Virus record (IMG/VR): IMGVR_UViG_3300042897_000035
Location: 1 to 30,522 of that record
Source of the DNA: a virus
DNA: 30,522 nt
Strand: one strand, 5' to 3'
Both the position numbers and the translations under genes were made by a program. The notes under the pieces are model-generated. The model was not told the DNA's origin and did no database searches. It saw nothing but the letters and a program-made list of their open reading frames with translations. This document shows positions 4,278-30,522 of the stretch, piece by piece; the stretch's first letter is position 1; each line of letters starts with the position of its first letter.

Positions 4278-4323
4278 AATATTTTTTTATAATAATAATT
4301 TAAACATAAAATTGTTTTAAAAC

Positions 4324-4357
4324 AAAAAAGGCATACTAATTAAAGTACACCTTTTTA
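4324..4357 (-). terminator. Intrinsic terminator after the tail-tube gene
   Basis: Stem AAAAAGG / CCTTTTT, a CA/CA internal loop, an inner stem TACT/AGTA and loop AATTAA. Read on the minus strand it ends in a T run (4324-4329). The shape is nearly the same as at 26378..26410. The A and T runs on both sides would let it act in both directions. Confidence 0.75.
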
Positions 4358-4920: not shown

Positions 4921-4940
4921 AATTTTATATTTTTAAAGTT

Positions 4941-4971: not shown

Positions 4972-4992
4972 ATTAATATACGTTACTAATTA

Positions 4993-5958: not shown

Positions 5959-5971
5959 AATTTAAATTTTT

Positions 5972-6520: not shown

Positions 6521-6530
6521 ATTTATTTAT

Positions 6531-6896: not shown

Positions 6897-6943
6897 ATTA
6901 TTATTTTTTTATTATAATTATTTTTATAACACTTTGTTATAAA

Positions 6944-7150: not shown

Positions 7151-7153
7151 TAA

Positions 7154-8041: not shown

Positions 8042-8081
8042 ATTCTTTTTTTATATTATAATTAATTTATATTTATTTTGT

Positions 8082-9722
8082 TTATCCTATTGAAGCACTT
8101 GAAATTATATTGCGTTCTAAACTTTGAGCAGTACTTATATCTCCAGCCACCACATAAGTTTTTATAGGTTGTTGTTGTTGGTTACCTATTGTTTGTGCTA
8201 ATTGATTTGTAGAACTTGCACCTACTACGTTAAATGATGGAGCAGCTGGAGCAGCACCCATTCCTCCACCACTTGGAGCAGAACCACCACCTCCACCACT
8301 GGGAGTTTTTACTGCTAATATAGATTGTACATTTTTCAATCCCCCTGCTATTGCTAAACCTGCAGAAATAAACGGATAAGCTGGTCCTAAAATAGATATT
8401 GGATTTAATTGTGCATTTTTAAAAGCAGACTGTGCTGCTGCATAAGTATCTATTGTTGCTGCTGCAACTGCTGCTGTTTTTCCTGCTGCCGTATTTTTTC
8501 CAACTAAATCTGATATTTGACCTAACATTGCAGAACCCCTTTGTAAGTTTTGAATTTTTGCATTAGCTAATTTTTCAGCAATTACTATTTGAGCATCAGC
8601 CTGAGCTTTAGCATCAGCAGTTGATTTTATTCCTTTATCAGCTTCAGAAGCAAAATATTCAGTGTCTAATTGAGCTAATTTTCTTTTGTGTTCTTTTTCT
8701 ATTTCCTCAATAGATAAACCTTTATTTAATAAATCTAATTTTTTGGCTTCAAAATCGGCATTTTCTTTTTCAACTTTAATTTGATTTTCAGTTTTTAAAG
8801 CATTTTCATTTGCTTTTCTTGCATCAGCAATTAATTTTTCTGCTGCTTCATATTCATCTCTTGCTCTTTCTCCTTGTCTACCTATTAATGCTTGACGTTC
8901 TTTTTCTATTTCTTCTAATCTCTTTTTTTCTTCTTCTGCTTTTCTTATTCTTTCTTGTTTAGCTTTTTCATCATTAGCCGCTTGTTTTTCTTGTGATGCC
9001 TTTCTTGCTTCTGCTCTTTTTTCCGCTTCTTCTTTTTCAGTTTTAGACATTTCTTTACTGCCTTCATTAAACCTTTTTATAGAAGCATCATAATTTTTAC
9101 TAAAATCATTAACTGAACTTTTAGCATCCTTCCAAGCACCACTAAAATCACCAGAAATAAGTTTTTTAATTGCTCCACCTAACAATCCTAAAGATTGGAA
9201 TACCGCAGTTACAGAACTATAAACAACTCCAAAAGCTTTTGATACAGTAGGTAAAGCACTAATAGCTAAATCAACTAACGTATTAAATAAAGGTTCTACT
9301 GCTCTAAATACTCCTTGAAATAATTTACCAATACCATCAAGTAAAGGTTGCAATTTCTTCATTGCTACTTCATTGTCTTGAAATGCTGCAACTAATCCAC
9401 CAATCAAGGCTACAACTAAACCTATTCCTGTAGCCTTTAATGCACCACCAAAACTTTGAGTAGCTACTTTTGCTCTATTTAAAGATGCACCCAATGCACC
9501 TATAGGTCCTCCTGCACTTTCTAAACTATCAATCCAATCAGATGATGTATTTTTAGCAGATTTAATCTTATCTTCTAAATCATCTATTTGATTAAATATC
9601 TTTTTAAATTCTTCAGAACCAGCAGCAGTATCTTTTAACTGCCTTTTTAATGCTTTTAAATCTGATATAGACTCTCCGAGATTTGATTTAACTTCTAACT
9701 CTATTGTTTTCTTTTCAGCCAT
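8082..9722 (-). CDS. Tape measure protein
   Basis: 546 residues; long, Ala/Lys/Glu-rich. N-terminal coiled coil (SDLKALKRQLKD), a hydrophobic Gly-rich stretch near residues 98-113 (GIGLVVALIGGLVAAF), a charged coiled coil over about residues 220-370, a second hydrophobic patch near 450-465 and a Gly/Ser/Pro-rich C-terminus. This order is that of siphophage tape measures, which set tail length and travel with the DNA. If about 1.5 angstrom per residue holds, the tail would be short (roughly 80 nm). It starts inside the 52-residue gene before it (22-base overlap). Confidence 0.85.
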   Translation of the reverse strand: MAEKKTIELEVKSNLGESISDLKALKRQLKDTAAGSEEFKKIFNQIDDLEDKIKSAKNTSSDWIDSLESAGGPIGALGASLNRAKVATQSFGGALKATGIGLVVALIGGLVAAFQDNEVAMKKLQPLLDGIGKLFQGVFRAVEPLFNTLVDLAISALPTVSKAFGVVYSSVTAVFQSLGLLGGAIKKLISGDFSGAWKDAKSSVNDFSKNYDASIKRFNEGSKEMSKTEKEEAEKRAEARKASQEKQAANDEKAKQERIRKAEEEKKRLEEIEKERQALIGRQGERARDEYEAAEKLIADARKANENALKTENQIKVEKENADFEAKKLDLLNKGLSIEEIEKEHKRKLAQLDTEYFASEADKGIKSTADAKAQADAQIVIAEKLANAKIQNLQRGSAMLGQISDLVGKNTAAGKTAAVAAATIDTYAAAQSAFKNAQLNPISILGPAYPFISAGLAIAGGLKNVQSILAVKTPSGGGGGSAPSGGGMGAAPAAPSFNVVGASSTNQLAQTIGNQQQQPIKTYVVAGDISTAQSLERNIISSASIG

Positions 9723-13271: not shown

Positions 13272-13774
13272 TTTATATCTTTTAAATTAACATCTACCAT
13301 TGTTTCAACATCCTGCCCAAATGCTTTTAATAAATCTACATCTATATATTTTTTATATCCTGCCTCAAATGGTTTAGTGAAAAATAAAGAAGGTTTAATT
13401 CCATTCATAAATATGCTTCTTGCTATTGCGTATTGTAAACCTTTTCTTGATTGAAATTCTCCTTTAGCATTTCTTGGTGCTATTCCTTTTTTTACTATCC
13501 ATTTGTCAAATGCTTTTGCAGGAGGCATTTTATTTTTATAACTATATGGTGTATTGTATTTTTTAATCTTACCAGAAACTCCTTTATCCTGATAAACACC
13601 ATAATCAACCATAGAAAAACCAACTATGTTAAATCCATTTTCACTTACAATTTCGCCTTTAATAGAATTATATAATTCTTTAGAACTATTCTTTCCACTT
13701 TTAGTTAAATTACTTCTTGATTGTTGGATAACATAATCCCTAAACTTAATTAAAGTCTTTTGAACTTCTAACAT
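13268..13774 (-). CDS. HK97 gp10-like tail completion protein
   Basis: 168 residues. The YGVYQDKGVSGK segment (residues about 58-69), the preceding helix with LTKSGKNSSKELYNSI and the C-terminal strand/helix pattern fit the HK97 gp10 family, which joins head and tail. Overlaps the upstream gene by 7 bases and the downstream one by 4. Its place next to a tail-terminator-like gene supports the call. Basic overall. Confidence 0.6.
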   Translation of the reverse strand: MLEVQKTLIKFRDYVIQQSRSNLTKSGKNSSKELYNSIKGEIVSENGFNIVGFSMVDYGVYQDKGVSGKIKKYNTPYSYKNKMPPAKAFDKWIVKKGIAPRNAKGEFQSRKGLQYAIARSIFMNGIKPSLFFTKPFEAGYKKYIDVDLLKAFGQDVETMVDVNLKDIK

Positions 13775-14223
13775 TTACTCATTTGGTTTTGTATTACCAT
13801 ATCAAAAGTAACAGTTACACCTGCCATTTTATTTTCAAATCTTTCTGTAAAAAATTCACAAGATGGTGTTCCTGCTAATTCATAATCATCTCCGAATTTA
13901 CCCATTCTTAAAACTTCCAAGAATCTATTAACTACCATTAATTGTGTATTTAAAACATCTTGTTCATTGTCATTACCTAAAAATATATCTGTTGTTAATG
14001 ATTTACTTTCATCAACTATATCCATACATAATATAGATACATTGTAATTCCAAGTAGAACCTAAATACGTTGCTGAATTAATTATAATATGGCTTAAAGG
14101 AAAGATTGTAAGCTTGTTTAAATCAACTTTAAATATGTCTCCAATAGTAACTGTGTTTACAAATAAATCCTCCTTTAATTGGTTCTTAATTGCTTGTGTT
14201 ATTTCGTAATAATGTGACGTCAT
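13768..14223 (-). CDS. Putative tail terminator / tail completion protein
   Basis: 151 residues with an N-terminal helix (YYEITQAIKNQLKED) followed by strands (NTVTIGDIFKVDLNK, WNYNVSILCMDIVD) and a C-terminal strand after a long helix; this is the layout of minor tail/terminator ring proteins. Its ATG overlaps the TGA of the -1 frame of the tail assembly chaperone (ATGA), so ribosomes that shift frame would be fed straight into it. Identification rests on length, layout and context. Confidence 0.5.
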   Translation of the reverse strand: MTSHYYEITQAIKNQLKEDLFVNTVTIGDIFKVDLNKLTIFPLSHIIINSATYLGSTWNYNVSILCMDIVDESKSLTTDIFLGNDNEQDVLNTQLMVVNRFLEVLRMGKFGDDYELAGTPSCEFFTERFENKMAGVTVTFDMVIQNQMSKC

Positions 14224-14477
14224 CTATTTTGTCTTTTAATTAAATCAGCTTCTATTTTATTCTTTTCTTTTTCAAATGTTAGATATGTTAAACATTGGTT
14301 GATTGGTAATCTTGTAACGGAATCAAATCTTGTAACGTCTCCTTGACTAAGAGCATACAGGCTACTATACCATCCGAATCTGGAATTGAAATTTGCCGTT
14401 GCAGAATATTCTGTATCTCCTTGTCCTTCTCCAAATAAGCTATCGTAGCTTTCAATAATTCGTTGCCTAAACGATAA
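14220..14477 (-). CDS. -1 frame extension of the tail assembly chaperone (GT-like)
   Basis: This reading frame has no ATG near its beginning; the first possible start is a TTG at 14501. It becomes continuous with the 226-residue frame by a -1 slip on nine T at 14484-14476, giving a product of about 249 residues (164 shared plus 85). The extension contains FNSRFGWYSSLYALSQGDV, RLPINQCLTYLTFEKEK and ends KRQNR; this FGWY...ECL/QCL...YEK-type pattern is one I know from phage tail assembly chaperone C-termini. It ends in an ATGA overlap with the next gene, whereas the zero frame stops 64 bases earlier. Confidence 0.65.
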   Translation of the reverse strand, partial: LSFRQRIIESYDSLFGEGQGDTEYSATANFNSRFGWYSSLYALSQGDVTRFDSVTRLPINQCLTYLTFEKEKNKIEADLIKRQNR

Positions 14478-14968
14478 AAAAAAACCGTAGCACCTAAACA
14501 AACATCTAACGGTGCAAACTTCATTACTTCTGCATAAGTTATTGTTCCATTATAATCTTCAATCTCATATGTGCCATTTAAGCCCTTCTTTTTAATTGGT
14601 CTATATAACACTGCCATTGCTTTATGTATTTCGTCCCAATCGGTTATATAGGTATCCAAATCGGTATATTCTCCAAATGTCATATCTTCTAAATTAGGAA
14701 TAAAACCAAATTCAGTTCCACCCATTTTAAATGTAGGTATAAAAGAATGATTCTGATTAAACATATTTCCAATAGATGTAGTTATATCATTTACATCTTT
14801 ATATTTAATTGAAGCAACTTCTTTTAAATCTATTCCACAAAATATCTGTACCATCTTTTGATGCAGAAATTCTGAATCTTCATTGTCTTTAGCTATCTTT
14901 AAAAAAGCCTGATATTGTGAAAGTTTTATTTCACTTAATTTAGTTGGTATTGTTATTTCTAATTTCAT
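14288..14968 (-). CDS. Tail assembly chaperone, zero-frame product (G-like)
   Basis: 226 residues, beginning KLEITIPTKLSEIKLSQYQA and continuing mostly helical with an acidic character. It is the first gene of the tail block, after a terminator and an AT-rich leader. The run GGTTTTTTTTTATC at codons 162-165 offers a -1 slip into the overlapping frame, as in lambda G/GT. After the slip site the zero frame still has 62 sensible residues (LLKATIAYLEKDKEI...), so both ends may be used. Chaperones of this class coat the tape measure during tail assembly. The alternative is two overlapping but independent genes. Confidence 0.65.
   Translation of the reverse strand: MKLEITIPTKLSEIKLSQYQAFLKIAKDNEDSEFLHQKMVQIFCGIDLKEVASIKYKDVNDITTSIGNMFNQNHSFIPTFKMGGTEFGFIPNLEDMTFGEYTDLDTYITDWDEIHKAMAVLYRPIKKKGLNGTYEIEDYNGTITYAEVMKFAPLDVCLGATVFFYRLGNELLKATIAYLEKDKEIQNILQRQISIPDSDGIVACMLLVKETLQDLIPLQDYQSTNV
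14476..14484 (-). other. Slippery T9 run, -1 programmed frameshift site
   Basis: Nine consecutive T on the minus strand in the context ACG GTT TTT TTT TAT. A one-base backward slip gives ...TTT TTT TTA TCG and joins the two overlapping tail-chaperone frames. A homopolymer of this length would also allow RNA polymerase slippage. Confidence 0.7.
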
Positions 14969-15016
14969 TTGATTTGTTTTTTATAATAATAAAATAAAGT
15001 ATAAATTGTATTAAAC

Positions 15017-15060
15017 AAAAAAAAGACCAGAAGGCTGTTCTTACGGGAAGCTCTACTGGT
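15017..15060 (-). terminator. Intrinsic terminator closing the three-gene cassette
   Basis: Outer stem ACCAG/CTGGT (15026-15030 with 15056-15060) and inner stem GGCT/AGCT around a 12-base loop. On the minus strand it is followed by eight T (15024-15017). It lies 27 bases after the stop of the 53-residue gene and just before the tail block. Confidence 0.75.
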
Positions 15061-15086
15061 ACTTTAATCAACTATTAATTAATCCA

Positions 15087-15248
15087 CTAACTAATCTCTT
15101 TTATATCTATTGCAAAGAAGTTCTGTTTAAACATATCTTTGAATATTGTAATAACCATTTGTTCGTTTGCTGCTATTATTTCAGCATACTCATAATCTTT
15201 TTCGTTGTCAGCATATCTGTACCAACCTTTAACTTCGTATTGTTTCAT
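15087..15248 (-). CDS. Small protein of unknown function, third gene of cassette
   Basis: 53 residues, ATG at 15248 after an AAAACAAACATT leader. Begins MKQYEVKGWYRYADNEKDY and is rich in aromatic and acidic residues (strand-strand-helix-like pattern). It is the last gene between the promoter at 15716 and the terminator at 15017. No family recognised; the setting suggests an early, host-directed protein. Confidence 0.6.
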   Translation of the reverse strand: MKQYEVKGWYRYADNEKDYEYAEIIAANEQMVITIFKDMFKQNFFAIDIKEIS

Positions 15249-15263
15249 AATGTTTGTTTTTAT

Positions 15264-15461
15264 TTATGCTAAATTTTTTTGATTTTCATTTAATAAATCC
15301 CAAATAGAAATAAATATATTAATAGCTTCTTGTCTTGTTTCACAATGAAATGTATCTCCATATCTTAAATCAATACACATCCAAACCTTATTTCCTAATT
15401 CGTTAATACTTTTAAAAACATTTTTGTTAACATATTCTTGTATTTGATATTGCTTTGTCAT
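15264..15461 (-). CDS. Small protein of unknown function, second gene of cassette
   Basis: 65 residues with the sequence VWMCIDLRYGDTFHCETRQE in the middle and a C-terminal helix (AINIFISIWDLLNENQ). Single compact alpha/beta domain by appearance, no signal peptide or membrane segment. Sits 15 bases before the next cassette gene and is expected to be co-transcribed from 15716. Not recognised. Confidence 0.65.
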   Translation of the reverse strand: MTKQYQIQEYVNKNVFKSINELGNKVWMCIDLRYGDTFHCETRQEAINIFISIWDLLNENQKNLA

Positions 15462-15507
15462 AATTTCTACCTGTAATATAATGTATTTTAATTTTAATTT
15501 GTTTTAA

Positions 15508-15681
15508 TTATTTAGTTTCAATATAACATCTTGATAAATTCCAATCTCCTAATAACCATTTTATAGTTTTAGTTCCTTTAATAAAACATTCTTTAAAAGC
15601 AGAAACATCAGTACTTTTTTGCGTGTGTATTACCAATTCTTTAGTAAATTTATTTTCTAATTCAATGATTAAAGTTTGCAT
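15508..15681 (-). CDS. Small protein of unknown function, first gene of cassette
   Basis: 57 residues starting MQTLIIELENKFTKELVI. The frame is open further upstream, to 15726, but the promoter -7 box at 15716-15723 places transcription start near 15711, so the ATG at 15681 after AAACTAAACAAT is the start I choose. Contains a short strand-helix pattern and KWLLGDWNLSRCYIETK at the end. No family recognised. Confidence 0.65.
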   Translation of the reverse strand: MQTLIIELENKFTKELVIHTQKSTDVSAFKECFIKGTKTIKWLLGDWNLSRCYIETK

Positions 15682-15715
15682 ATTGTTTAGTTTTTTAGTT
15701 GTTGTTATCTGAGTA

Positions 15716-15745
15716 CAAATATACAACAGTTATTAACATTACAAA
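15716..15745 (-). promoter_or_regulatory. Bacteroidota-type promoter for the three-gene cassette
   Basis: On the minus strand: TTTG (15745-15742), an 18-base spacer, then TATATTTG (15723-15716), matching the Bacteroidota sigma factor pattern TTTG ... TAnnTTTG. The same TATATTTGTACTCA and upstream ATAGTTTT recur at 26308. Predicted start of RNA is about 30 bases before the first ATG. Confidence 0.7.
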
Positions 15746-15757
15746 ACTATTTTAAAA

Positions 15758-15780
15758 TTTTAACAAAACTTTAACATTTA
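15758..15780 (-). promoter_or_regulatory. Upstream element with two GTTAAA sites, copy 1
   Basis: Plus-strand text TTTTAACAAAACTTTAACAT plus TTA. On the minus strand it holds GTTAAA twice, 11 bases apart. A 22-base identical copy lies at 26351..26373 and a diverged one at 19835..19854, each upstream of a TAnnTTTG box. Here the gap to the -7 box is 34 bases. It may be an activator or repressor site, or an AT-rich UP element. Confidence 0.55.
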
Positions 15781-15833
15781 TAAGATTAAATACATTTTAC
15801 AAATACAATGCTTTTTGTTATTTATATTTTACT

Positions 15834-15983
15834 TTAACTATTCAAATAAGCACTTGCAACTTTGTACATTTCTTGCATTTTTTTAATCTCACCTATATTA
15901 CGTGGCAAATTAATAACCACTTCTATATTTTTTATGTGGTGAATATAACATTGTATTGTTGAAATTATTTCTCCGTATGTCAT
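15834..15983 (-). CDS. Small protein after the large terminase
   Basis: 49 residues. The ATG at 15983 shares a base with the terminase stop (TAATG), so it is translationally coupled to it. Begins MTYGEIISTIQCYIHHIKNI, two short helices with a possible KKMQEMYKVA helix at the end. Not recognised; it is the last gene of the terminase unit before the inserted cassette. Confidence 0.55.
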   Translation of the reverse strand: MTYGEIISTIQCYIHHIKNIEVVINLPRNIGEIKKMQEMYKVASAYLNS

Positions 15984-17149
15984 TAGTAAATAAAGTAACT
16001 TCCTTTGTTTGGATTTTCTAAATGTGATGTTGCTGCATATCGCATTGCATCTATTGCGTGATTATAAGCATCTATTGGTTTGTTCATTTTAACTCCTGTT
16101 TTATCTACCATCCAGATATAGTTTCTTAATTCGTTTATTAGATTCTTACTTCTTGATGTGATATATATTTTGTTTTGATTGATTAAATTTAAGCCATATA
16201 AGATACTATCTTTTCCTTTTGATACTGGTAATACATTATGTCCATAACTATTCAATTCAGCTATTGATTTTGGTTCAGCACTATCAGCATAAACAATATC
16301 ATTTACTTCATTTGCCTTTAATAGATTTGATATTTCACTATTCAACAATCCTTTCTTATAAATTACCTCATCAAATATATAAGCATCATTATATTTATAC
16401 ATTGCAACTAAACTCGTAGGGTCATTTGAATAACCAAAATCCATTCCATAACATAATATTCTTGCATCAGTTGGTAAATCTATTTCATTCCAATCTGTAA
16501 TACATACACCTTCTAAACTACCTGTTTGTCCAAGTCCATATACTTGCCACCAATTAGCCCAATATGTAGATGTTAATGCTTTTACTTTTGCTGATTCTAT
16601 TTCTTTTATAATAGTTTCACTTAATGCTTCATTATCTAAATACGTTAATGTAATAAAGTCTACATTATCTTGTGTTAGTATTTCTTTGTCTACCCAAAAT
16701 GCAGAAGCAGGATTATAATCTAACCATATATCACCTGATGTTCTAATTGCCATTTGGTAATAGCTTTCAAAGTCTATATTGTTACATTCATTAACGTATA
16801 ATATGTTTCTTCTTGCTCCTCTTAATTTATCAGGTTGGTCTACAGAAAAGAATTCAATATAACTACCATTAGCAAATGTGTATTTTAAAGTAGACTTATT
16901 AAACTGGTCATCATTATATCTACCTAATGCCATTATAATCTTTAAGAAGTCTTTTAAAGCACCTCTACGTAAATGTGGTATACTTTCAGATACTACACTT
17001 ATTTCAAGCATAGGTTCTTTTATTGCTTTATCAATTAGCAAAGGAAGTATTCCAAAAGTTTTACCAGCTGAAGTACCTCCTCTAATAACTTTAATACGTT
17101 GCTTTAAACGTGATAACTTTCTTATTGCAGTAGTTAATACAAACTCCAT
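15983..17149 (-). CDS. terL: Terminase large subunit
   Basis: 388 residues, a compact terminase motor-nuclease. Walker A RGGTSAGKT at residues 23-31, Walker B ILYVNE at 116-121 with catalytic E121, and the RNase H-like nuclease acidic residues D237 (GMDFGYSNDPT), D289 (YADSAEP) and D367 (HAIDAMRY). It packages concatemeric DNA through the portal using ATP and cuts it. The small subunit lies 12 bases upstream. By length and motif spacing it looks like a complete PBSX/Terminase_3-type enzyme. Confidence in function is high. Confidence 0.95.
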   Translation of the reverse strand: MEFVLTTAIRKLSRLKQRIKVIRGGTSAGKTFGILPLLIDKAIKEPMLEISVVSESIPHLRRGALKDFLKIIMALGRYNDDQFNKSTLKYTFANGSYIEFFSVDQPDKLRGARRNILYVNECNNIDFESYYQMAIRTSGDIWLDYNPASAFWVDKEILTQDNVDFITLTYLDNEALSETIIKEIESAKVKALTSTYWANWWQVYGLGQTGSLEGVCITDWNEIDLPTDARILCYGMDFGYSNDPTSLVAMYKYNDAYIFDEVIYKKGLLNSEISNLLKANEVNDIVYADSAEPKSIAELNSYGHNVLPVSKGKDSILYGLNLINQNKIYITSRSKNLINELRNYIWMVDKTGVKMNKPIDAYNHAIDAMRYAATSHLENPNKGSYFIY

Positions 17150-17160
17150 ATAATAGTGTC

Positions 17161-17418
17161 TTAAATGTCATCAAAATTGATGTTAAAGATAGGTTGCTCA
17201 TTTGTTACTGTAATGTCTTTTGTTTCTCTTGGTTTACCAGCATAGTAATTATAGAATAATTGTGTGAATTTAAAATCACCATTCTCTAATCCTTTTTCTA
17301 ATGCCATAAATGCTATTGGTTCTAATGCTCCAAGTTTTTCAAGTAACTTTACTTCTTCTGCTTTTGATTTACGTCCAGCACTTTTGTTACCACCGTTGTA
17401 TTTTCTTTTATCTTCCAT
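17161..17418 (-). CDS. terS: Putative terminase small subunit
   Basis: 85 residues from the ATG at 17418; a TTG two codons earlier is also open but less likely. Begins MEDKRKYNGGNKSAGRKSKA, a basic DNA-binding N-terminus, followed by helices (EEVKLLEKLGALEPIAFMAL) and a GKP motif (AGKPRET). This matches short small-terminase proteins of Bacteroidota phages, and the gene lies immediately before terL. It would bind the packaging site and recruit TerL. Confidence 0.75.
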   Translation of the reverse strand: MEDKRKYNGGNKSAGRKSKAEEVKLLEKLGALEPIAFMALEKGLENGDFKFTQLFYNYYAGKPRETKDITVTNEQPIFNINFDDI

Positions 17419-17461
17419 AATCAAATAATATCATTATTGAATTAAAAATAAATAAAATCTA

Positions 17462-17668
17462 TTATTGTTTATCTTTAAATCCATTTTTCAATCTCATTAA
17501 ATTATTTGCTCTTTCTTTTATCTGTTTAAATTCAGAATCAGTTTTAACTCTTTCAGATAAACATTTATCACAATATAAATCTTGAGTGTTACCTGTAGTT
17601 ATTATTATACTACATAGATGACAAAGTGTAGCACCTAATCCTCCATTTAATTTATGTATTGGTTTCAT
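17462..17668 (-). CDS. Small zinc-finger-like protein
   Basis: 68 residues with CHLC (16-19) and CDKC (33-36), a two-CxxC zinc ribbon pattern, then a charged helix. Its ATG overlaps the TGA of the upstream 31-residue gene (ATGA). Lies 43 bases before terS. Possibly DNA- or RNA-binding; no named family recognised. Confidence 0.6.
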   Translation of the reverse strand: MKPIHKLNGGLGATLCHLCSIIITTGNTQDLYCDKCLSERVKTDSEFKQIKERANNLMRLKNGFKDKQ

Positions 17669-17760
17669 TCTCCTTGTCCTTTTTTAATTAAATAATACCA
17701 TAGCCAAATTAACTTTGACCTTAAAAACTCATAAGCTAATAATACTAATATATATTTCAT
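17665..17760 (-). CDS. 31-residue membrane peptide
   Basis: ORF MKYILVLLAYEFLRSKLIWL... ending KKGQGE: one strongly hydrophobic span flanked by basic residues, so probably a small inner-membrane peptide. Start and stop both form ATGA overlaps with neighbours (17757..17760 and 17665..17668), which supports translation. Function unknown. Confidence 0.5.
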   Translation of the reverse strand: MKYILVLLAYEFLRSKLIWLWYYLIKKGQGE

Positions 17761-17891
17761 AATCCTTTTGATTGTTTAAATAATTTTAATAGTCTTTCTA
17801 CTTTTGTTATTTCCATATCTTCAAATAACCAGTGGGCAAATTCAATAGCATATTCATCAGCTATTTGTTCTAACTTTTCTTTAGTTGTCAT
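17757..17891 (-). CDS. Small helical protein
   Basis: 44 residues, MTTKEKLEQIADEYAIEFAH..., predicted to be two charged helices. The ATG at 17891 lies inside the upstream gene's last codons and the stop overlaps the next ATG. Part of a chain of tiny, coupled genes between the DnaA-like gene and terminase. Not recognised. Confidence 0.55.
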   Translation of the reverse strand: MTTKEKLEQIADEYAIEFAHWLFEDMEITKVERLLKLFKQSKGL

Positions 17892-18048
17892 CTTCATCAG
17901 TTTTATATTCCCAGAAGTATTCACATTCTAATCCTTCGTTTGGAGGTTTACAAAAGTATGATTGTCTAAACTTACTTGGTTCTGCTTTATATCTATAACA
18001 TATAGAAGATAGTTCACAGTTGTTTCCTGAACACATTGTTATATCCAT
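17881..18048 (-). CDS. Small cysteine-rich protein (CSGNNC...C...C...C)
   Basis: 55 residues beginning MDITMCSGNNCELSSICYRY, with five Cys in the pattern C-x4-C-x5-C-x15-C-x8-C and a Trp/Glu-rich end. I know this MDITMCSGxxC pattern as a common small protein of Bacteroidota phages and prophages. The Cys spacing suggests a metal or Fe-S site; role unknown. It starts one base after the DnaA-like stop codon region, so it is co-transcribed with it. Confidence 0.6.
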   Translation of the reverse strand: MDITMCSGNNCELSSICYRYKAEPSKFRQSYFCKPPNEGLECEYFWEYKTDEDDN

Positions 18049-18049
18049 C

Positions 18050-18598
18050 TTAATTGTTTTTATTATGTTCTATTACTTTCATATTCATATCGTAGATAGC
18101 TTCTAAACGTAGTATCATTACATTGTGGTGTTCTGTATCTTTTGTTTGATTAAGAAGGTTGTTTAACTGTTCTATTATTTTGTATTCGTATGCTGCTTTT
18201 TCAAGTTTATTTATTCTTAAATTAGTTTCTTCTAATTGTATTTCTAATTCAGATACTTTTAAGTTTTTCTTTTTAAGTTCTAATCTTAATTCTTCATTAT
18301 CTTCTGTATTTAATACATTTTGTTCATCTATTTCATTTACTATTATATTTCTTAAACTTCTTAAATCCCTATTAAACTTTTCATACATTGTATAGTTATT
18401 TAAAGAATGTATTACAGTAGCGTGATTCTTATTTACTGATTCAGCTATTTCTTGTAATGTCATTTTAGGTTTAAAATGCTTTACCAAATAAAAATATAAT
18501 GCTCTTGCTTCTATTATATTATGCTTTCTACTATTTTTAGAAACATCTATATCAGTTTCTTTTAATATTATTTCTTTTAATCTTTCTGTTATTTCCAT
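18050..18598 (-). CDS. DnaA domain IV-like DNA-binding protein with coiled coil
   Basis: 182 residues. Residues about 22-82 resemble DnaA domain IV: KHNIIEARALYFYLVKHF, then MTLQEIAESVNKNHATVIHS, where the NHATVIHS segment corresponds to the DHSTVIHA helix-turn-helix signature that reads DnaA boxes. There is no AAA+ domain. Residues about 98-140 are a heptad-rich coiled coil (LRLELKKKNLKVSELEIQLE). It could mark the phage origin, compete with host DnaA, or act as a transcription regulator. The gene lies between the exonuclease and the pre-terminase small genes. Confidence 0.7.
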   Translation of the reverse strand: MEITERLKEIILKETDIDVSKNSRKHNIIEARALYFYLVKHFKPKMTLQEIAESVNKNHATVIHSLNNYTMYEKFNRDLRSLRNIIVNEIDEQNVLNTEDNEELRLELKKKNLKVSELEIQLEETNLRINKLEKAAYEYKIIEQLNNLLNQTKDTEHHNVMILRLEAIYDMNMKVIEHNKNN

Positions 18599-19385: not shown

Positions 19386-19572
19386 TGTTTATTATTAGTT
19401 TTAGTATGTAATCGTATGTTTCTAATTCTCTTTCTGTACTATCAATCATTATCTTTAAATGTTCATCAGATGTTAAACTTTGTCCAGACATTAGTTCACC
19501 AAGGTATTGAAACAATTCTCTATCTAACACCTGTACTTTAGATTGTATTGTAAAGTATGCAGCTTCATTCAT
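19369..19572 (-). CDS. Small helical protein of unknown function
   Basis: 67 residues, begins MNEAAYFTIQSKVQVLDREL, all helix by appearance. ATG overlaps the upstream stop by 4 bases and its 3' end overlaps the exonuclease start by 17 bases, so it is made with the exonuclease. Could be an accessory protein of that enzyme; nothing in the sequence names it. Confidence 0.6.
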   Translation of the reverse strand: MNEAAYFTIQSKVQVLDRELFQYLGELMSGQSLTSDEHLKIMIDSTERELETYDYILKLIINNGNKN

Positions 19573-19775
19573 ATTCTTATATTATCTAAATTACTCATTG
19601 TTTCATCATAATTCAATACGTCTCTAATTTGTTGTGCATAAGCTTCTGATTCATTCCAATCTTTTACTAATGCTTCAGCAATCAATTCTAACTGTTTACG
19701 TACATAAAAGTTTTCAGTTGTTTCTAAAATAGAAATGCAAGTTTCTAATTTGAATAAAATTTGTAGTTTGTCCAT
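19569..19775 (-). CDS. Small helical protein, first gene of the exonuclease unit
   Basis: 68 residues, MDKLQILFKLETCISILETT..., two or three helices. ATG at 19775 is preceded by AAAAAACAAACAAA, the recurrent early leader, and by a TACATTTG box at 19803-19810, so it opens the transcript that runs through exonuclease, DnaA-like gene and probably terminase. Not recognised. Confidence 0.65.
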   Translation of the reverse strand: MDKLQILFKLETCISILETTENFYVRKQLELIAEALVKDWNESEAYAQQIRDVLNYDETMSNLDNIRI

Positions 19776-19802
19776 TTTGTTTGTTTTTTAAATTGTTATA
19801 AG

Positions 19803-19834
19803 CAAATGTAAACATTATTTGTTTATAAAAAACA
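19803..19834 (-). promoter_or_regulatory. Bacteroidota-type promoter for the exonuclease/DnaA-like unit
   Basis: On the minus strand the -7 box is TACATTTG (19810-19803), fitting TAnnTTTG; the -33 region is only T-rich. It lies 28 bases before the ATG at 19775 and directly after a terminator, the normal order for a unit boundary. The GTTAAA element lies 24 bases upstream of the box. Confidence 0.6.
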
Positions 19835-19854
19835 TTTTAACAAAAAATTAACAT
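19835..19854 (-). promoter_or_regulatory. Upstream element with two GTTAA sites, copy 2 (diverged)
   Basis: Plus-strand TTTTAACAAAAAATTAACAT, two changes from the copies at 15758 and 26351. The GTTAAA and GTTAAT half-sites keep the 11-base spacing. The gap to the -7 box is 24 bases, about one helical turn less than at the other two promoters. Confidence 0.5.
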
Positions 19855-19879
19855 AAAAAAAACAATCATTTCTGATTGC
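19855..19879 (-). terminator. Intrinsic terminator with GAAA tetraloop
   Basis: On the minus strand: CAATCA, loop GAAA, TGATTG, then eight T (19862-19855). The hairpin contains the stop codon of the 45-residue gene, so translation of that gene would run into it. It separates the upstream small-gene cluster from the exonuclease unit. Confidence 0.8.
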
Positions 19880-20003
19880 TTAATTTTAAATTAATAATTT
19901 TTCTATATATTTCATTAACTCTTTCGGAGTTTAATCCTCTATTATAATTGAATTTCATTATACGTTGGATTCTTTGTAATGCTGATTGTTTACTTCGTGT
20001 CAT
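19866..20003 (-). CDS. Small basic protein ending in a terminator hairpin
   Basis: 45 residues, MTRSKQSALQRIQRIMKFNY..., with many Arg and Lys; probably one or two helices able to contact nucleic acid. ATG lies 14 bases inside the upstream gene. Its TGA lies in the hairpin stem of the terminator at 19855..19879, so a ribosome at the stop could melt the hairpin, which would link translation to termination. Confidence 0.55.
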   Translation of the reverse strand: MTRSKQSALQRIQRIMKFNYNRGLNSERVNEIYRKIINLKLSNQK

Positions 20004-20954: not shown

Positions 20955-21340
20955 TGTTTTGCTTTTGTTAGTTCTAAATATGCTACTTCTTTTTCTATTC
21001 TTTTTGTGTTGTAAAATTGTGTTGTTGCAGGGTTTTTATTATTAGTTTCCCATTCTGGAATAATTAGATTTAAGTTAAAACTGTATATTCCTTTTGGAGT
21101 TGAGTTAAAATACATTGGTGTGTCTAAATGCTTTTCACATTCTTGTTTCATTGCATCGTACTTTTTCTTTTCAAGTAGTAAAGTATTGTAATGTGTTTTT
21201 CTGCACTTTAATTCCAATCTATGTCCTTTGATGGGACTGTAACAATCCCATCTTGACATTTGATTTTTAGCTTTAACTAAATCAGGATATACATTTTCTT
21301 TTAACCAATTAAATAAATCAACTTCTGACCAATTATTCAT
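20945..21340 (-). CDS. Putative PD-(D/E)XK nuclease-like protein
   Basis: 131 residues. WDCYSP (D32) followed by HRLELKCRKTHYN (E43, K45) and LLEKKKYDAM gives the D...ExK plus downstream Lys/Tyr helix of small PD-(D/E)XK nucleases such as resolvases and repair nucleases; a NLNLIIPEWE strand follows. The sequence begins NNWSEVDLFNWLKENVYPDL. It may trim or resolve recombination intermediates in this polymerase-less replication set. The assignment rests on the motif alone. Confidence 0.55.
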   Translation of the reverse strand: MNNWSEVDLFNWLKENVYPDLVKAKNQMSRWDCYSPIKGHRLELKCRKTHYNTLLLEKKKYDAMKQECEKHLDTPMYFNSTPKGIYSFNLNLIIPEWETNNKNPATTQFYNTKRIEKEVAYLELTKAKQWK

Positions 21341-21710
21341 TTATTTTATATTCGTTGTAAACTCGTCTTAATTCATCAAGTTTACCTTTCCAACAACTTG
21401 CACAAGAACTTATCTGTAAACGATAGTTGAATACGTTAAAATAGATGTCTGAAATCTCTTGTTGTTCTATTGCAGTTAATGTAGTTTGTTGAGCAGATAA
21501 ATACTTTGTAAGTTTAGTATAATCTGATTCGTTTAAACAGTTTATATTTCTGTTGTAAGGAAATAAATTATTTAACTTTTCTTTTCTTTCATCGCAGCCA
21601 CAATCTATGCCTGTTGCTTCGCTAAACATTTCAACTACTTTTTTAATTCCTGTTGCTTCGGTTAGTTTTTCAATTGAATCTCCTAATCCTTTACTCTTCT
21701 GTTTCGCCAT
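21333..21710 (-). CDS. Conserved Cys-containing Bacteroidota phage protein
   Basis: 125 residues. The opening GLGDSIEKLTEATGIKKVVE followed by TGIDCGCDERKEKLN is a pattern I have seen repeatedly in Bacteroidota phages; the later CASC motif gives four Cys (CGC + CxxC) that could bind zinc. ATG overlaps the stop of the 50-residue upstream gene by 20 bases. Role unknown. Confidence 0.65.
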   Translation of the reverse strand: MAKQKSKGLGDSIEKLTEATGIKKVVEMFSEATGIDCGCDERKEKLNNLFPYNRNINCLNESDYTKLTKYLSAQQTTLTAIEQQEISDIYFNVFNYRLQISSCASCWKGKLDELRRVYNEYKINE

Positions 21711-21859: not shown

Positions 21860-22402
21860 TTAATATATTTGATTGTAATCATTGTTAATGTAATCCTGAT
21901 AATCTTTCTGAAATTTAGTACTTAATATTTCCTTGTAATTTTTAATTGAATGGAATATAGATATTAAACTTATATTAGTTTCACTTGAAATATCTCTCAT
22001 ACTCATATCTGTATCTCTATAAAGCTTAAACAATTTACGGTCATACCAATGCCAATTTTCTAATTCATCATCAATTAACATACATATATCATTATATGCT
22101 TTATGTTCTTCTATGTTTGAATCATCAAATAATTCCCAACATCCATCAATAGGTACTTTTGTTACTTTTTTCTTTTTGTTGTAAAACTGATAATATAATG
22201 ATTTTAATGTGAAAAACATATATCCTTTTCTGACTTTACCATTTGCATCAATTAGTTTAGAAGCATCAGCATATTTTATCAATGCTATATAACTTTCCTG
22301 TACTATATCTTCAGCGTAATCATACTCTCCAAATTTATGAATTATTTCAATCCATTCTTTGTGGTGTTTTGCTACATTCTCCAACCATTTGAAGTCGTCC
22401 AT
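21860..22402 (-). CDS. Phage sigma-70-like factor
   Basis: 180 residues. YDYAEDIVQESYIALIKYAD (residues about 27-46) matches sigma region 2, with the DIVQESY core expected for core polymerase binding; the C-terminal RKLFKLYRDTDMSMRDIS (near 122-139) and the following ETNISLISIFHSIKNYKEIL match the region 4 helix-turn-helix that reads the -35 box. Length fits an ECF-type factor. I infer that it redirects host RNA polymerase to late phage promoters. It overlaps a small membrane-protein gene at its start by 31 bases. Confidence 0.75.
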   Translation of the reverse strand: MDDFKWLENVAKHHKEWIEIIHKFGEYDYAEDIVQESYIALIKYADASKLIDANGKVRKGYMFFTLKSLYYQFYNKKKKVTKVPIDGCWELFDDSNIEEHKAYNDICMLIDDELENWHWYDRKLFKLYRDTDMSMRDISSETNISLISIFHSIKNYKEILSTKFQKDYQDYINNDYNQIY

Positions 22403-22590
22403 ATAAATGAAAATGAAATTACTAAAATTAAAACTTGTACAGTGTGTTCTGTTTCGTCATCAAATTCATCGTCATTATATAATGCACCGAGCATTACACC
22501 TTTAATTGGATTTATAATTATATCACAATCGTAGAATTGTGCTATTATAAATGCAGTACATAAAATAAAACCTAAAGTTAATGTTATCAT
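22372..22590 (-). CDS. Small two-helix membrane protein
   Basis: 72 residues with hydrophobic spans near residues 2-18 (ITLTLGFILCTAFIIAQF) and 50-65 (VQVLILVISFSFIWTT), joined by an acidic loop (NDDEFDDETEH). Probably an inner-membrane protein; a role in superinfection exclusion is possible but only by analogy. Overlaps the sigma factor start. Confidence 0.55.
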   Translation of the reverse strand: MITLTLGFILCTAFIIAQFYDCDIIINPIKGVMLGALYNDDEFDDETEHTVQVLILVISFSFIWTTSNGWRM

Positions 22591-23798: not shown

Positions 23799-24338
23799 TT
23801 AGAAATTTAATAATACTTTATTTATTAATTCTAAATGTTTTTCTTTTGTATCTAATAAAATACCATTTAAATCTTTATACATAAAAGTATTTTTATCATA
23901 TTTTATAAATCTATGAATTTTTGCGTGGTCAGTTCTATTTAATTCAATTATATCTTTTGCAAATTCAACATTATAATTCCAATGATGTCTTTGATTTTTT
24001 TCATCTAAAAGTTTAACTCTTTGAGATAATGTTTTTGCTTTTTGTTTTTCAGGATATTTAAATTTATATTTTTCTGAAATAATTTTTTTATTTTCAACTG
24101 TAGGTTTATATTTATCTTTATAAAAAAGTCTATGATATTTACCCCTATTTCTTTCTCTTTCTTTTTCTAAACCTTCTGGAGTAGATATTAATTTTTGTGT
24201 TATAATTTTTACATCTAATTTAGTACATATTTTACATTTTCCTAAATAACCATCTTTTGTTGCAGGATGTTTGTAAAAATCATTTAATTCTTTTTTAATG
24301 TTACATTTAAAGCAAACCTTTGTTACAATCGTATTCAT
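23799..24338 (-). CDS. HNH-like zinc-finger endonuclease
   Basis: 179 residues. CFKCNIKKELNDFYKH and GYLGKCKICTK form a four-Cys zinc site (residues about 9-38), followed by a basic helical region and then RHHWNYNVEFAKDIIELN plus DHAKIHRF, an HNH-like arrangement (H117, H118, N120, H138, H141). It stands between SSB and the ATPase and seems unlinked to either, as free-standing homing endonucleases do. Its codons look even more AT-rich than its neighbours (many Lys, Ile, Tyr). Confidence 0.65.
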   Translation of the reverse strand: MNTIVTKVCFKCNIKKELNDFYKHPATKDGYLGKCKICTKLDVKIITQKLISTPEGLEKERERNRGKYHRLFYKDKYKPTVENKKIISEKYKFKYPEKQKAKTLSQRVKLLDEKNQRHHWNYNVEFAKDIIELNRTDHAKIHRFIKYDKNTFMYKDLNGILLDTKEKHLELINKVLLNF

Positions 24339-24363: not shown

Positions 24364-24371
24364 CAAAGGTA
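24364..24371 (-). promoter_or_regulatory. Possible -7 box before the HNH-like gene
   Basis: Minus strand TACCTTTG fits TAnnTTTG and lies 26 bases before the ATG at 24338. No -33 TTG is present at the right distance, and the GTTAAA element is missing, so this is a weak call. Confidence 0.3.
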
Positions 24372-25321: not shown

Positions 25322-25762
25322 TTATAGTTTTAAGTTATTGTTTTTTCTAAAATTTATACATTCTTCTATTGTTAAAAATCTATATTGTTTATTGTTAAAT
25401 TGAGTTGTAAATTTACTTTTTAAACCTTTTGTTATTTCATCTTTATAAATTCCAACATAACCAGTTATATCATTTGCTTTTCTTTTATGATTTAAAGAAT
25501 TTTCTAAACAACTAACATCCCTTAAATTTTTAATTCTATTATCACTTGTTATTCCATTAATATGGTCTATTAAATTATCAGGGTATTTTTTATAATTATA
25601 AAGCCAAATTAATCTATGTGCTTTATGTTGTTTACCTTTGTATTTTATAATTAAATACCCAAATTTATCTTTAGAACCATTACTATTTTTTCTTGTAATT
25701 CTATTTAATAATCCAGTATTATTATTATATTCAAAATTACTTATTAATTCTTCATATTCCAT
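25322..25762 (-). CDS. HNH homing endonuclease
   Basis: 146 residues of the HNH_3/NUMOD type: KAHRLIWLYNYKKYPDNLID (47-66), then DHINGITSDNRIKNLRDVS (66-84) with D66-H67, N69, N75 and N79, and CLENSLNHK. A C-terminal TGYVGIYKDE segment looks like an AP2-type DNA-binding domain. It lies only 3 bases before ERF with no sign of an intron, so it is probably a free-standing mobile gene inserted into the recombination operon. Confidence 0.85.
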   Translation of the reverse strand: MEYEELISNFEYNNNTGLLNRITRKNSNGSKDKFGYLIIKYKGKQHKAHRLIWLYNYKKYPDNLIDHINGITSDNRIKNLRDVSCLENSLNHKRKANDITGYVGIYKDEITKGLKSKFTTQFNNKQYRFLTIEECINFRKNNNLKL

Positions 25763-26282: not shown

Positions 26283-26307
26283 AATATTTGTTTTTGTTTG
26301 TTGAGTA

Positions 26308-26341
26308 CAAATATATAACTGTTTTTGATATAAAAAACTAT
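26308..26341 (-). promoter_or_regulatory. Bacteroidota-type promoter for the ERF/SSB unit
   Basis: Minus strand TATATTTGTACTCA with the box at 26315-26308, preceded at 18 bases by ATAGTTTT, almost the same as the promoter at 15716. RNA would start about 20 bases before the ATG at 26282. It follows the terminator at 26378 and the GTTAAA element at 26351. Confidence 0.65.
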
Positions 26342-26350
26342 CAATATTAA

Positions 26351-26373
26351 TTTTAACAAAACTTTAACATTTT
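26351..26373 (-). promoter_or_regulatory. Upstream element with two GTTAAA sites, copy 3
   Basis: Identical over 22 bases to 15758..15779. Gap to the -7 box is 35 bases, against 34 at 15716. It lies directly before the terminator at 26378. Confidence 0.55.
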
Positions 26374-26377
26374 AAAC

Positions 26378-26410
26378 AAAAAAAGGGACACTAATTAAAG
26401 CATCCCTTTT
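26378..26410 (-). terminator. Intrinsic terminator after the NinG-like gene
   Basis: Stem AAAAGGGA/TCCCTTTT, CA/CA internal loop, inner CT/AG pair, loop AATTAA; seven T follow on the minus strand (26384-26378). Same design as the terminator at 4324. Confidence 0.8.
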
Positions 26411-26436
26411 CTAACAAACAATATATAAACAGAGAA

Positions 26437-26824: not shown

Positions 26825-26860
26825 CAAATGTATGTAGTATAAATTAACAATTTTAGTTAA
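26825..26860 (-). promoter_or_regulatory. Possible promoter with inverted-repeat operator before ninG
   Basis: Minus strand TACATTTG (26832-26825) stands four bases before the ninG ATG, which would make a nearly leaderless RNA. TTAAC-N7-GTTAA (26844-26860) overlaps the expected -33 region and could bind a repressor. Both signals are short and the region is very AT-rich. Confidence 0.4.
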
Positions 26861-28524: not shown

Positions 28525-30522
28525 TATACAAAGTATTGAATCATTGCGTATGCGTATCTATGGGTTGATGCTACTCTTGATATTACTATTTCAAAAACAT
28601 TTGGAGAAGTAGATTTTAATCGTAAAGCACAAAAAGCAGCAGCAGTTGTTGCTAATACTTTGGAAGATATAATCATTCCAGCTCCATAATTAACAACATC
28701 TAATGCTGTTGTAACTGATGAAGGTAAAGCTGGTGTTGGAGCTGTTGATGGTAGTTCCATAGTTACAGATGATACAGTTCCTCCTGAGGCAGTTCCATAA
28801 GCTAAATTTATTGTCAATGTTACTAAATTACCTATTTGAGATAAAGAATAAGTGTGGTCAGTTGTTCCACTTGGTGCTGTTCCTCCAGTCCATACAATAG
28901 TACCAGAATATACTTGATTAGTTAAATTTTCAAATGGTTGTGTAGTTGGAATTGCACTTGCATTAGTATTATTAGCCAACATAGTATAAGCTGCTCTTGA
29001 AGTATCAACTGTACTAATCGTATTAGTTGTTATATTTATACCATTTCCTGCGGTTAAAGTATCTTGTTTGTTATTAAATGTAGTCCAATTAGCAGAAGAT
29101 AAAGCACCTCTATTACTTGCACTTGCACTTGGTAAATTAAATGTATGTGTACTTCCACTTGAATTAATAGCAAAATCTGTTCCTGTTGTTCCTGTTGCAA
29201 AATTTTGAACTTGTGCTTGTAATCCATTTAAAGCAGTTAATCCAGCGGTAAATGTTGTTATTACTTCGCAAAGATGTCCATTTTGTGTATGTAGTGTAAT
29301 TGTTTTACTTGAAGCATTTACATAAACTCTAATAGCTAATCTATCATTTATTGTTAATACCGTTTCAGGCACTGCTAATGGTGTAAAATAAGCATCGATA
29401 GCCGTACCATTTGTTATTCCTTCAGGAGTAGCAGAACTACTTGCAATGGATGTAAATGTAGTTCCATCGTATTTATACAATTCAACATAAAATGAAGGTG
29501 AACCACCTGCAGAACTTGAAGAAAAGAAAAATTCTAAATTCCAATTTCCAGCAGGAATAAGTAATAATGATGGGTCTGCTACATCAGTTATAAATGAAGC
29601 TATATATCCATTAGAACTTATATTAAAGTCTGCACCTGTTCCTATTACTGCAGTTTTACTAAACTCATAATAAGTTGTACCTCCAAACGTACCTTGACTT
29701 GTTCCGCCATTTAAATAATAATTAACACTTGAACCACCACCTCCAGCACCCCCAACAGAAGATATTTGACCTCCTGTAATTGTTATATTAGTACCAGCAG
29801 TTATTACTGAACCGTCAGCAGCTAATATTTGAGATGATGTTCCACCTTGTTTTATTAATTTTGTAGCAGTTATATCATTTAGTCCTAAATCAACATTGGA
29901 TGTAGCACCTGTATATGGAACACCATCAATTATATCATCTACTGTTGCTAAAATATATTCACCATCAGCTTTATTACTTGGTAAAGCAAACGACAATCCT
30001 CCAGCAGAAATACCCTCTACATAGAATAAAGTAATATTTCTATCAGTTGTATCTGTATAACTTGTACTATAACCACCATAACTCATTGAACCTAATCCAC
30101 TGTAAGTTAAACCAATCACATTTTCAGCCTGGTTTCCATTGCTTAAAATTTGTTCTAATGCTGGTTTATTTAATATTTGAGCATCTCCAGTTGTAGCATT
30201 CCAATCTGCGTTTACGTTTACTTCAGCACCTGTTGCAATACCACTTAATTTTGTTTTTTCAGCAGTAGTATAATCATTTAAAGTTGCACCTGCTAAAGTA
30301 CCATTTCCTAAAGGCACAATGGCATCTGTTCCCGTATCTGAATTAATTGTAAAATTACTTGAGGTTTGTGAAGTTGTTAAATTAGTTGCTCCACCACCAC
30401 CACCTGTTGAAGATATTGTTCCGCCTGATATTGTTATATTTGTTCCAGCAGTTATTGAGTCGCCATTAGCTGCTAATAATTGAGATGATGTACCACCTTG
30501 TTTTATTAATTTTGTAGCAGTT
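28524..30522 (-). CDS. Tail fibre / adsorption protein, C-terminal part (cut by the window's right end)
   Basis: The frame is open from the right edge of the window (30522) to the stop at 28524: 665 residues. A GTG at 30317 is inside the frame and is not the true start. It contains IKQGGTSSQLLAANG and, again near 29870, IKQGGTSSQILAADG, then VPYTGATSNVDLGLND and a long Ser/Thr/Asn/Gly-rich beta region. The C-terminal 120 residues end MIQYFV and may be the receptor-binding head. Joined to 1..1262 it gives about 929 residues. TAATG coupling to the small acidic gene follows. Confidence 0.8.
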   Translation of the reverse strand, partial: TATKLIKQGGTSSQLLAANGDSITAGTNITISGGTISSTGGGGGATNLTTSQTSSNFTINSDTGTDAIVPLGNGTLAGATLNDYTTAEKTKLSGIATGAEVNVNADWNATTGDAQILNKPALEQILSNGNQAENVIGLTYSGLGSMSYGGYSTSYTDTTDRNITLFYVEGISAGGLSFALPSNKADGEYILATVDDIIDGVPYTGATSNVDLGLNDITATKLIKQGGTSSQILAADGSVITAGTNITITGGQISSVGGAGGGGSSVNYYLNGGTSQGTFGGTTYYEFSKTAVIGTGADFNISSNGYIASFITDVADPSLLLIPAGNWNLEFFFSSSSAGGSPSFYVELYKYDGTTFTSIASSSATPEGITNGTAIDAYFTPLAVPETVLTINDRLAIRVYVNASSKTITLHTQNGHLCEVITTFTAGLTALNGLQAQVQNFATGTTGTDFAINSSGSTHTFNLPSASASNRGALSSANWTTFNNKQDTLTAGNGINITTNTISTVDTSRAAYTMLANNTNASAIPTTQPFENLTNQVYSGTIVWTGGTAPSGTTDHTYSLSQIGNLVTLTINLAYGTASGGTVSSVTMELPSTAPTPALPSSVTTALDVVNYGAGMIISSKVLATTAAAFCALRLKSTSPNVFEIVISRVASTHRYAYAMIQYFV
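30052..30522. repeat. Terminal near-repeat, right copy
   Basis: Matches 1..471 without gaps, with 27 mismatches, all between 30179 and 30405. The parts 30052..30178 and 30406..30522 are identical to the left copy. See the left copy for interpretation. Confidence 0.85.

Follow-up and report, generated by a model that had tools for sequence, protein, structure and literature searches.

An ECF-like sigma factor and a candidate late-promoter motif in a group of uncultured phages with probable Bacteroidota hosts

The stretch of DNA analysed here, referred to as the window, is the entire IMG/VR record IMGVR_UViG_3300042897_000035 (30,522 bases), and all of its open reading frames (ORFs) longer than 120 amino acids lie on the minus strand. 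Its two ends (1-471 and 30052-30522) overlap within a repetitive tail-fibre-like gene, with 444 of 471 positions identical. Exact end overlaps were found in nine of the 31 genomes compared, and the genome is therefore probably circular or circularly permuted. These 31 comprise the window and 30 related records; 26 (window included) are close and five distant. With the exception of the cultured Nonlabens phage P12024S, all genomes were picked because the sigma factor is present, and since they are related, counts across them are not independent. The window TerL shares 54% identity with TerLs of Flavobacterium psychrophilum phages, a sigma relative of 68% identity was found in a Bacteroidetes MAG contig, and searches with MCP and portal matched only the Nonlabens phages P12024S/L among isolates; together these point to a member of the Bacteroidota as the most likely host. 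TerL (15983-17149) comes in two types (84-98% or about 31-54% identity to that of the window) in genomes that share the sigma and head genes, which would be a sign of module exchange. Two ORFs that look HNH-endonuclease-like by eye, 23799-24338 and 25322-25762, occur in only three and two of the 31 genomes, respectively, and are likely recent insertions. The gene at 18050-18598, found by tblastn in 30 of the 31, encodes a phage protein with DnaA domain IV (PF08299, E=2.5e-10) that may act by binding DnaA boxes or in the control of replication.

The ORF at 21860-22402 carries YAEDIVQESYIAL at residues 29-41, including AEDIVQE, a segment that contacts core polymerase in sigma70. Among NCBIfam models, TIGR02985 gave the best E-value (1e-5) with a match over residues 18-155, spanning both sigma domains, followed by TIGR02937 (sigma70-ECF; E=1.3e-4, residues 27-145). 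PHROG_1740, 'RNA polymerase sigma factor', also matched (E=4e-4), and the Pfam matches to regions 2 and 4 were weak (E=0.07 and 0.22); for the window protein alone, every Pfam and NCBIfam match fell under the curated cut-offs. The family as a whole gives a stronger signal: each of the 39 sequences in the alignment, that of the window among them, matches TIGR02985 and TIGR02937 at E<=0.01 (lowest 6.8e-13 and 4.3e-11), and one relative, L103, passes the gathering score of Pfam Sigma70_r2 (24.5 versus 24 bits). The 39-sequence alignment shows no variation at V34, Q35 and Y38, nor at several positions of the C-terminal helix-turn-helix. Relatives are encoded on 315 IMG/VR stretches, and a further query reached relatives at 36-44% identity. 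A phmmer search of PDB sequences returned three matches, no sigma factor among them, and tblastn of the window protein in a phage collection of 50,697 records gave no match at E<=1, nor did tblastn of two distant relatives in the same collection give any.

An AlphaFold model of the protein (mean pLDDT 79.6, pTM 0.42) folds into two helical domains with a linker of low confidence between them. With VIA-align, the first was superposed on region 2 of E. coli sigmaE at 2.7 A across 77 residues and the second on sigmaE region 4 at 2.4 A across 69 residues, with Z scores near 9, which may reflect a common helical arrangement (Table 1). Alignment of the whole chain to sigmaE (Z 9.8) left an rmsd of 15.9 A, attributed to a different placing of the domains. 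The best 50 Foldseek matches in the PDB were nearly all sigma factors, with sigmaE first followed by SigL and SigW, at a best E-value of 7.7e-3 and none below 0.001. In BFVD, several of the best neighbours are phage proteins with an ECF sigma factor annotation, and the sigma factor of Cronobacter phage GAP52 was a weak structural match (E=0.035). Sigma2 and sigma4 domains are present and sigma1.1 and sigma3 are lacking, which is the ECF (group 4) layout. As judged from profiles, alignment and model, the ORF is a phage sigma factor of this layout. The original prediction had named it an ECF-like sigma factor with visible region 2 and region 4 segments; the first point was borne out by the profile matches of all 39 members together with the superpositions on sigmaE, and the second by those superpositions.

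A protein of this kind might instead be a sigma-derived DNA-binding activator or antiterminator of the ArpU, RinA, Q or YlxM type, which would use its helix-turn-helix while the polymerase kept the host sigma factor. The window protein does have YlxM/UPF0122 as its best Pfam match (E=5.8e-4), and 38 of the 39 members match YlxM; one relative matches Phage_antitermQ weakly (E=1.8e-4), and the gene lies between the replication and terminase genes, where such regulators often sit. The N-terminal half, however, is a complete region-2 fold, superposable on a sigma domain that binds the -10 element, and its VQ pair does not vary among the 39 members. With the promoter evidence given below, this alternative is considered unlikely.

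The sigma gene sits in the early region, downstream of host-type promoter boxes, and in the distant relative G034 TATATTTG is found directly upstream of it. The cysteine-rich protein encoded by the next gene downstream has no Pfam match; its model (pLDDT 72.8) matched no solved structure above Z 3.1 and gave two significant matches to viral structures, unnamed or uncharacterised. It is a possible sigma cofactor or anti-sigma factor. On the other side, the gene at 22372-22590 overlaps the sigma gene start by 31 nt and encodes a small protein, judged hydrophobic on visual inspection and shared by many relatives, which is another possible anti-sigma factor.

Table 1. Features of the window and the basis of their assignment.
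Feature	Positions	Strand	Basis
ECF-like sigma factor, 180 aa, ATG start	21860..22402	minus	profiles, alignment, predicted structure
Segment AEDIVQE, residues 30-36, probable core polymerase contact (from sequence)	22295..22315	minus	V34 and Q35 invariant in 39/39 aligned
Sigma region 2 domain (predicted), residues 1-82	22157..22402	minus	VIA-align 4lup_A (E. coli sigmaE region 2 with -10 DNA): Z 8.9, 2.7 A, 77 residues
Sigma region 4 domain with helix-turn-helix (predicted), residues 101-169	21896..22102	minus	VIA-align 2h27_D (E. coli sigmaE region 4 on -35 DNA): Z 8.7, 2.4 A, 69 residues
Cysteine-rich 125-aa protein, next gene downstream of sigma	21333..21710	minus	31/31 genomes; P12024S homologue gp35
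Candidate late promoter TTTAATACAAT-N12-TTATTATTATAAAA before 14288-14968	14979..15015	minus	site in 26/26 close genomes
Candidate late promoter TTTATAACAAA-N12-TAATTATAATAAAA before 6531-6896	6897..6943	minus	11/11 genomes with the gene
Candidate late promoter TTTAAAACAAT-N12-TTATTATTATAAAA before 3948-4277 and portal gene	4278..4321	minus	25/26 genomes
Weaker candidate late promoter AAACAAA-N12-TTAATTATAATA before head-protease-like gene 7154-8041	8042..8087	minus	relaxed pattern, 16/26 genomes
Terminator-like hairpin with T run, just before late promoter of 3948-4277	4325..4356	minus	terminator scan
Hairpin-like stretch (ACCAG...CTGGT) with T run, before late promoter of 14288-14968	15017..15060	minus	by reading; missed by terminator scan
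Host-type -7 box TATATTTG ahead of early gene	26308..26315	minus	box scan
Host-type -7 box TACATTTG ahead of NinG-like early gene	26825..26832	minus	box <=90 nt upstream in 16/19 genomes with called gap
Host-type -7 box TACCTTTG ahead of 23799-24338	24364..24371	minus	box scan
Host-type -7 box TACATTTG ahead of 19569-19775	19803..19810	minus	16/21 genomes with called gap
Two TAnnTTTG boxes beyond TerL (15749; 15723 inside ORF)	15716..15749	minus	exception to late/early contrast
-10-like halves by lineage: TTATTAwTAT, GATTAACTAT, CGTTAATA			

Reading of the late intergenic DNA identified the same block, TTTAAwACAAT-N12-TTATTAwTATAAAA followed by an ATG, before the unrelated genes 14288 and 3948 (genes are cited here by their lower coordinate), in both cases behind a hairpin with a T run. 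All 26 close genomes have the bipartite motif TTTAAwACAAT-N12-TTATTAwTAT at the start of late units; in the window, three sites are clear and one is weak (Table 1). In its strict form, TTTAAWACAAT-N12-TTATTA, it occurs 44 times on the sense strand of the close genomes and never on the antisense strand, with two sites in 21 genomes, one in two and none in three. A matrix trained on the 14288 sites only gave 65 sense matches and one antisense match above the threshold of 10 bits in these genomes. The sense matches lie at 14288 (26), at 3948 (23), at 6531/5972 or the gene there (14) and in the early region (2); the last two, one each in relatives G002 and G004, count against the late-promoter reading proposed here. 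In non-coding DNA there were 58 sense matches, training sites included, and no antisense match, compared to a mean of 0.45 and a maximum of 3 in dinucleotide shuffles. A degenerate form of the pattern gave four matches in the window with at most two mismatches where 0.13 were expected, and was set aside as circular, having been written from the same sites.

The spacing of the two boxes is rigid. With spacings of 6-21 tested across 885 upstream windows, 12 was found in 55 and 15 in 26, the latter shoulder arising from a TTA repeat, and every other spacing in five or fewer; about 200 random permutations of the boxes (with repeats) reached at most 9, against 52 observed. A relaxed form precedes the late families 14288 (26/26), 3948 (25/26), 6531 (11/11), 5972 (11/26) and 7154 (16/26), compared to two of 381 upstream regions of early genes. 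Its stray matches comprise portal (1/26), Rz (1/24), TerS (3/16, of which two were left after re-anchoring on ATG) and one site inside a coding region of the window. The motif is absent upstream of TerL (0/26), MCP (0/26), 4378 (0/26) and lysozyme (0/23), which counts against the explanation favoured here. For MCP and lysozyme, late promoters lying further upstream could suffice, an account that does not cover TerL and 4378. Gene 4378 likewise follows a terminator-like hairpin, the one behind MCP, and after this hairpin (4921-4992) most close genomes have a conserved leader, TTAACTTTwAAAA. A hairpin with a T run was identified by script upstream of each of 14288 and 3948 in 25 of 26 genomes, compared to 59 of 1040 random windows, although the terminator scan was not above chance (4 versus 4.7). 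In the Flavobacterium phage FpV9, which has a related TerL and no sigma factor annotated in the 27.7 of 42.7 kb covered, the late matrix had no match above 10 bits on either strand.

The motif was also used as the starting point. A scan of IMG/VR with TTTAAWACAAT-N12-TTATTANTAT, involving no protein query, matched at least 120 stretches and at least 123 sites. Among the matches listed, 68 sites lie before 14288 homologues and 52 before 3948 homologues; for the other three of the 123, no gene start was mapped within 75 nt, and at least one of these is cut off by the contig end. Late genes of this phage group are present in 118 of the 120 listed loci, and in 122 of the 123 listed sites the -10-like block lies 21-24 nt before the next ATG. 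As far as these listed matches go, the strict motif appears nearly confined to the 14288 and 3948 starts of this group. When 41 of the 120 loci, chosen for a length of about 8 kb or more, were checked for the sigma factor, it was present in 10, of which seven were already known from sigma searches. Of the 34 checked contigs that had been reached by the motif alone, three (31, 25 and 21 kb) encode it. The other 31, one of them searched minus its last 389 bases, gave no match to the sigma-flanking genes SSB, AAA25, 22592, 22372 and 21333; as they do not cover the sigma locus, they neither support nor contradict the pairing of sigma factor and motif.

The primary sigma factor of Flavobacterium reads TAnnTTTG, refined to TAHHTTTG (excerpts of PMC9723704 and PMC6847099). 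Over the whole window this box shows no excess on the coding strand (28 versus 32 on the other), and a generic sigma-70 promoter scan of positions 1-18500 performed no better than shuffles (106 versus 114.9). Between annotated ORFs, TAnnTTTG was found at 27027, 26832, 26315, 24371, 19810, 17958 and 15749, and none is intergenic ahead of the main head and tail units. An element resembling TGTTAAAGTTTTGTTAAAAT, possibly an operator or UP element, was seen by eye upstream of host-type boxes in 26283-26436, 15727-15982 and 19776-19989. The strand bias of the box, absent from the window alone, emerged only once non-coding DNA was counted over many genomes. Across the 25 close genomes whose landmarks could be used, window included, TAnnTTTG occurs 98 times sense and 38 times antisense in 28.1 kb of early non-coding DNA, compared to 39 and 42 times in 32.8 kb of late non-coding DNA; the stricter TAHHTTTG gave 91/33 early and 34/37 late, with early sense exceeding early antisense in 24 of the 25. 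For five late families, none of the 115 regions of 80 nt upstream contained TAHHTTTG, and one contained the looser TAnnTTTG; for two early families, TAHHTTTG was found in 33 of 51 upstream regions. The earlier claim that early units have TAnnTTTG boxes and late units lack them thus holds across the 25 genomes, with an exception in the window itself, where two boxes lie beyond TerL; the gene behind these is a small accessory gene present in two of 31 genomes. The missing boxes also bear on the activator or antiterminator alternative, as such a regulator should leave host boxes in place, and the motif that stands there instead is a rigidly spaced pair resembling -35 and -10 elements.

Where the sigma factor is only 35-44% identical to that of the window, the same late genes are preceded by blocks that are related to, but distinct from, those of the window group (aligned by eye). 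The block before the late ATG is GATTAACTATAT in G037 and G039, with close variants in G040, AGTTATATATAT in G035 and TAGTTATTA in G034, each with an AACAAA or ACAC-type sequence upstream of the -10-like block; the -35-like half is kept and the -10-like half has changed. Phage P12024S (Inhavirus) was reached through its homologues of MCP, portal and 14288, and a profile search of its ORFs then identified gp33 as a distant sigma homologue (E=1.3e-11), a protein already marked 'containing Sigma-70 region 2' in its record. Like the window gene, gp33 is located before homologues of gp35/TerS/TerL; it differs in having 159 amino acids, with the profile aligned only through the first two thirds. Six AAACAAA-N13/14-CGTTAATA-like pairs precede gp01, gp05, gp08, gp41, gp44 and gp45 of P12024S, all on the sense strand and none antisense, by a pattern written after reading the upstream regions of this phage; CGTTA[AC]TA alone occurs six times sense and three times antisense. 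In a phage not chosen by its sigma factor, a sigma homologue and a related motif at late genes are thus found together.

The use of CGTTAATA at the late sites of P12024S, where the window group has TTATTAwTAT, might suggest that the late motif is read by an alternative sigma factor of the host (ECF or sigma54), or by the host sigma factor with another phage activator, such as the DnaA-domain protein, and that the phage sigma has some other role. The -10-like half of the window group, however, lacks CGT, and this half changes between lineages that differ in their sigma factor. Such a change would not be expected of a fixed host factor, though the hosts may differ too. This possibility is regarded as very unlikely. 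A -10-like half that differs along with the sigma factor is what would be expected if this sigma reads the motif, although common ancestry by itself could also produce it.

The position of the block relative to the ATG could also be taken to mean that it is a translation-initiation or mRNA leader element and not a promoter. Its -10-like half lies at a near-constant 21-25 nt from the ATG at most sites, all six P12024S sites lie exactly 4 nt before the ATG while their box spacing varies by one, and in F. johnsoniae initiation is favoured by A-rich leaders (PMC6847099). In the window group, however, the spacing between the boxes varies less than the distance to the ATG, the far box is some 40 nt upstream, and the hairpins that precede two of the genes would make a new transcription start necessary behind them. 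A leader element is thus considered extremely improbable. Transcription probably starts very near the ATG: counting the first base of the -10-like block as -12, as for the host box (PMC6847099, excerpt), would give leaders of 9-13 nt at most sites of the window group and of zero length in P12024S. By the rule given for phi32_gp36, a start 6-8 nt on (PMC8948821, in extract), counted from the end of CGTTAATA, P12024S transcripts would start just inside the ATG. Leaderless mRNAs make up 5.5% in F. psychrophilum (PMC9723704, excerpt). The spacing of the two halves resembles that of an ECF promoter, SigAb, for which a spacer of 16-17 bp after AAC works (PMC12153292, in extract).

Given the observed sigma fold and sequence signature, together with the position, strand bias and spacing of the motif, the phage sigma factor is proposed, with a probability of roughly 0.85, to move the host polymerase from host-type early promoters to late promoters of the form TTTAAwACAAT-N12-TTATTAwTAT. 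Early in infection, the replication and recombination region, the sigma gene included, would be transcribed from TAnnTTTG promoters by the host RNA polymerase and the primary sigma factor of the host. The phage sigma would then join the host core polymerase, a predicted interaction to which the region-2 fold and the conserved VQ segment point, and direct it to the motif at the starts of the tail, head and portal units, presumably late in infection. At two of these starts, the motif lies just behind a terminator-like hairpin, which would block read-through from early transcription so that late transcription starts afresh. The change of polymerase specificity, or late switch, that had been predicted from the window is supported at the level of sequence by a conserved, rigidly spaced, non-host motif at the head of late units in 26 close genomes. 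More tentatively, and less likely than not, the group as a whole could consist of co-diverging pairs of sigma factors and late promoters, with about five promoter types that share an AAACAA-type -35 half and have their own -10 halves, with late mRNAs that are leaderless or nearly so, and perhaps with the cysteine-rich protein as cofactor. If so, these pairs would form a natural set of orthogonal promoters for the Bacteroidota, and if orthogonal, they could be useful expression tools there.

Bacteroidota hosts use an unusual primary promoter, and the present analysis provides a concrete candidate late-promoter motif for a common uncultured group, with sigma relatives on hundreds of IMG/VR stretches, and for its cultured relative P12024S. 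A search of the open-access literature found no late sigma factor in a Bacteroidota phage and no worked-out late switch, and a word search of two papers on flavobacterial phages (PMC8776804 and PMC4615864) found no sigma factor. In phages phiEco32 and 7-11, a phage sigma factor serves the late promoters and the host sigma the early ones, the late promoter of 7-11 being bipartite, GTAAtg-(16)-aCTA (PMC8948821, excerpts); the late-sigma arrangement of 7-11 had been predicted earlier (PMC4331800, in part). The window phage resembles these (phi32_gp36; 7-11 gp47) in having a phage sigma factor, host-type early promoters and a separate late class, here at the level of sequence, and differs from them in promoter sequence, host phylum and phage family, its protein being unmatched by tblastn in the phage collection. 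It shares the sigma2-plus-sigma4 composition and fold match with bacterial ECF sigma factors (sigmaE, SigW; TIGR02985 of Bacteroidota), but scores under the curated cut-off, has no identified anti-sigma factor and has as its candidate target a motif made of A and T only except for the C of ACAA. Phage T4 gp55 is reportedly likewise a small phage sigma factor that serves late genes through an A/T-rich -10 element. The late promoters of T4 are not known to have a -35 element and depend on a sliding clamp, whereas two boxes are conserved in the motif of the window group. Redirection from early to late genes by a phage sigma factor is a known strategy; the phage family and the promoter class in which it is proposed here are probably new.
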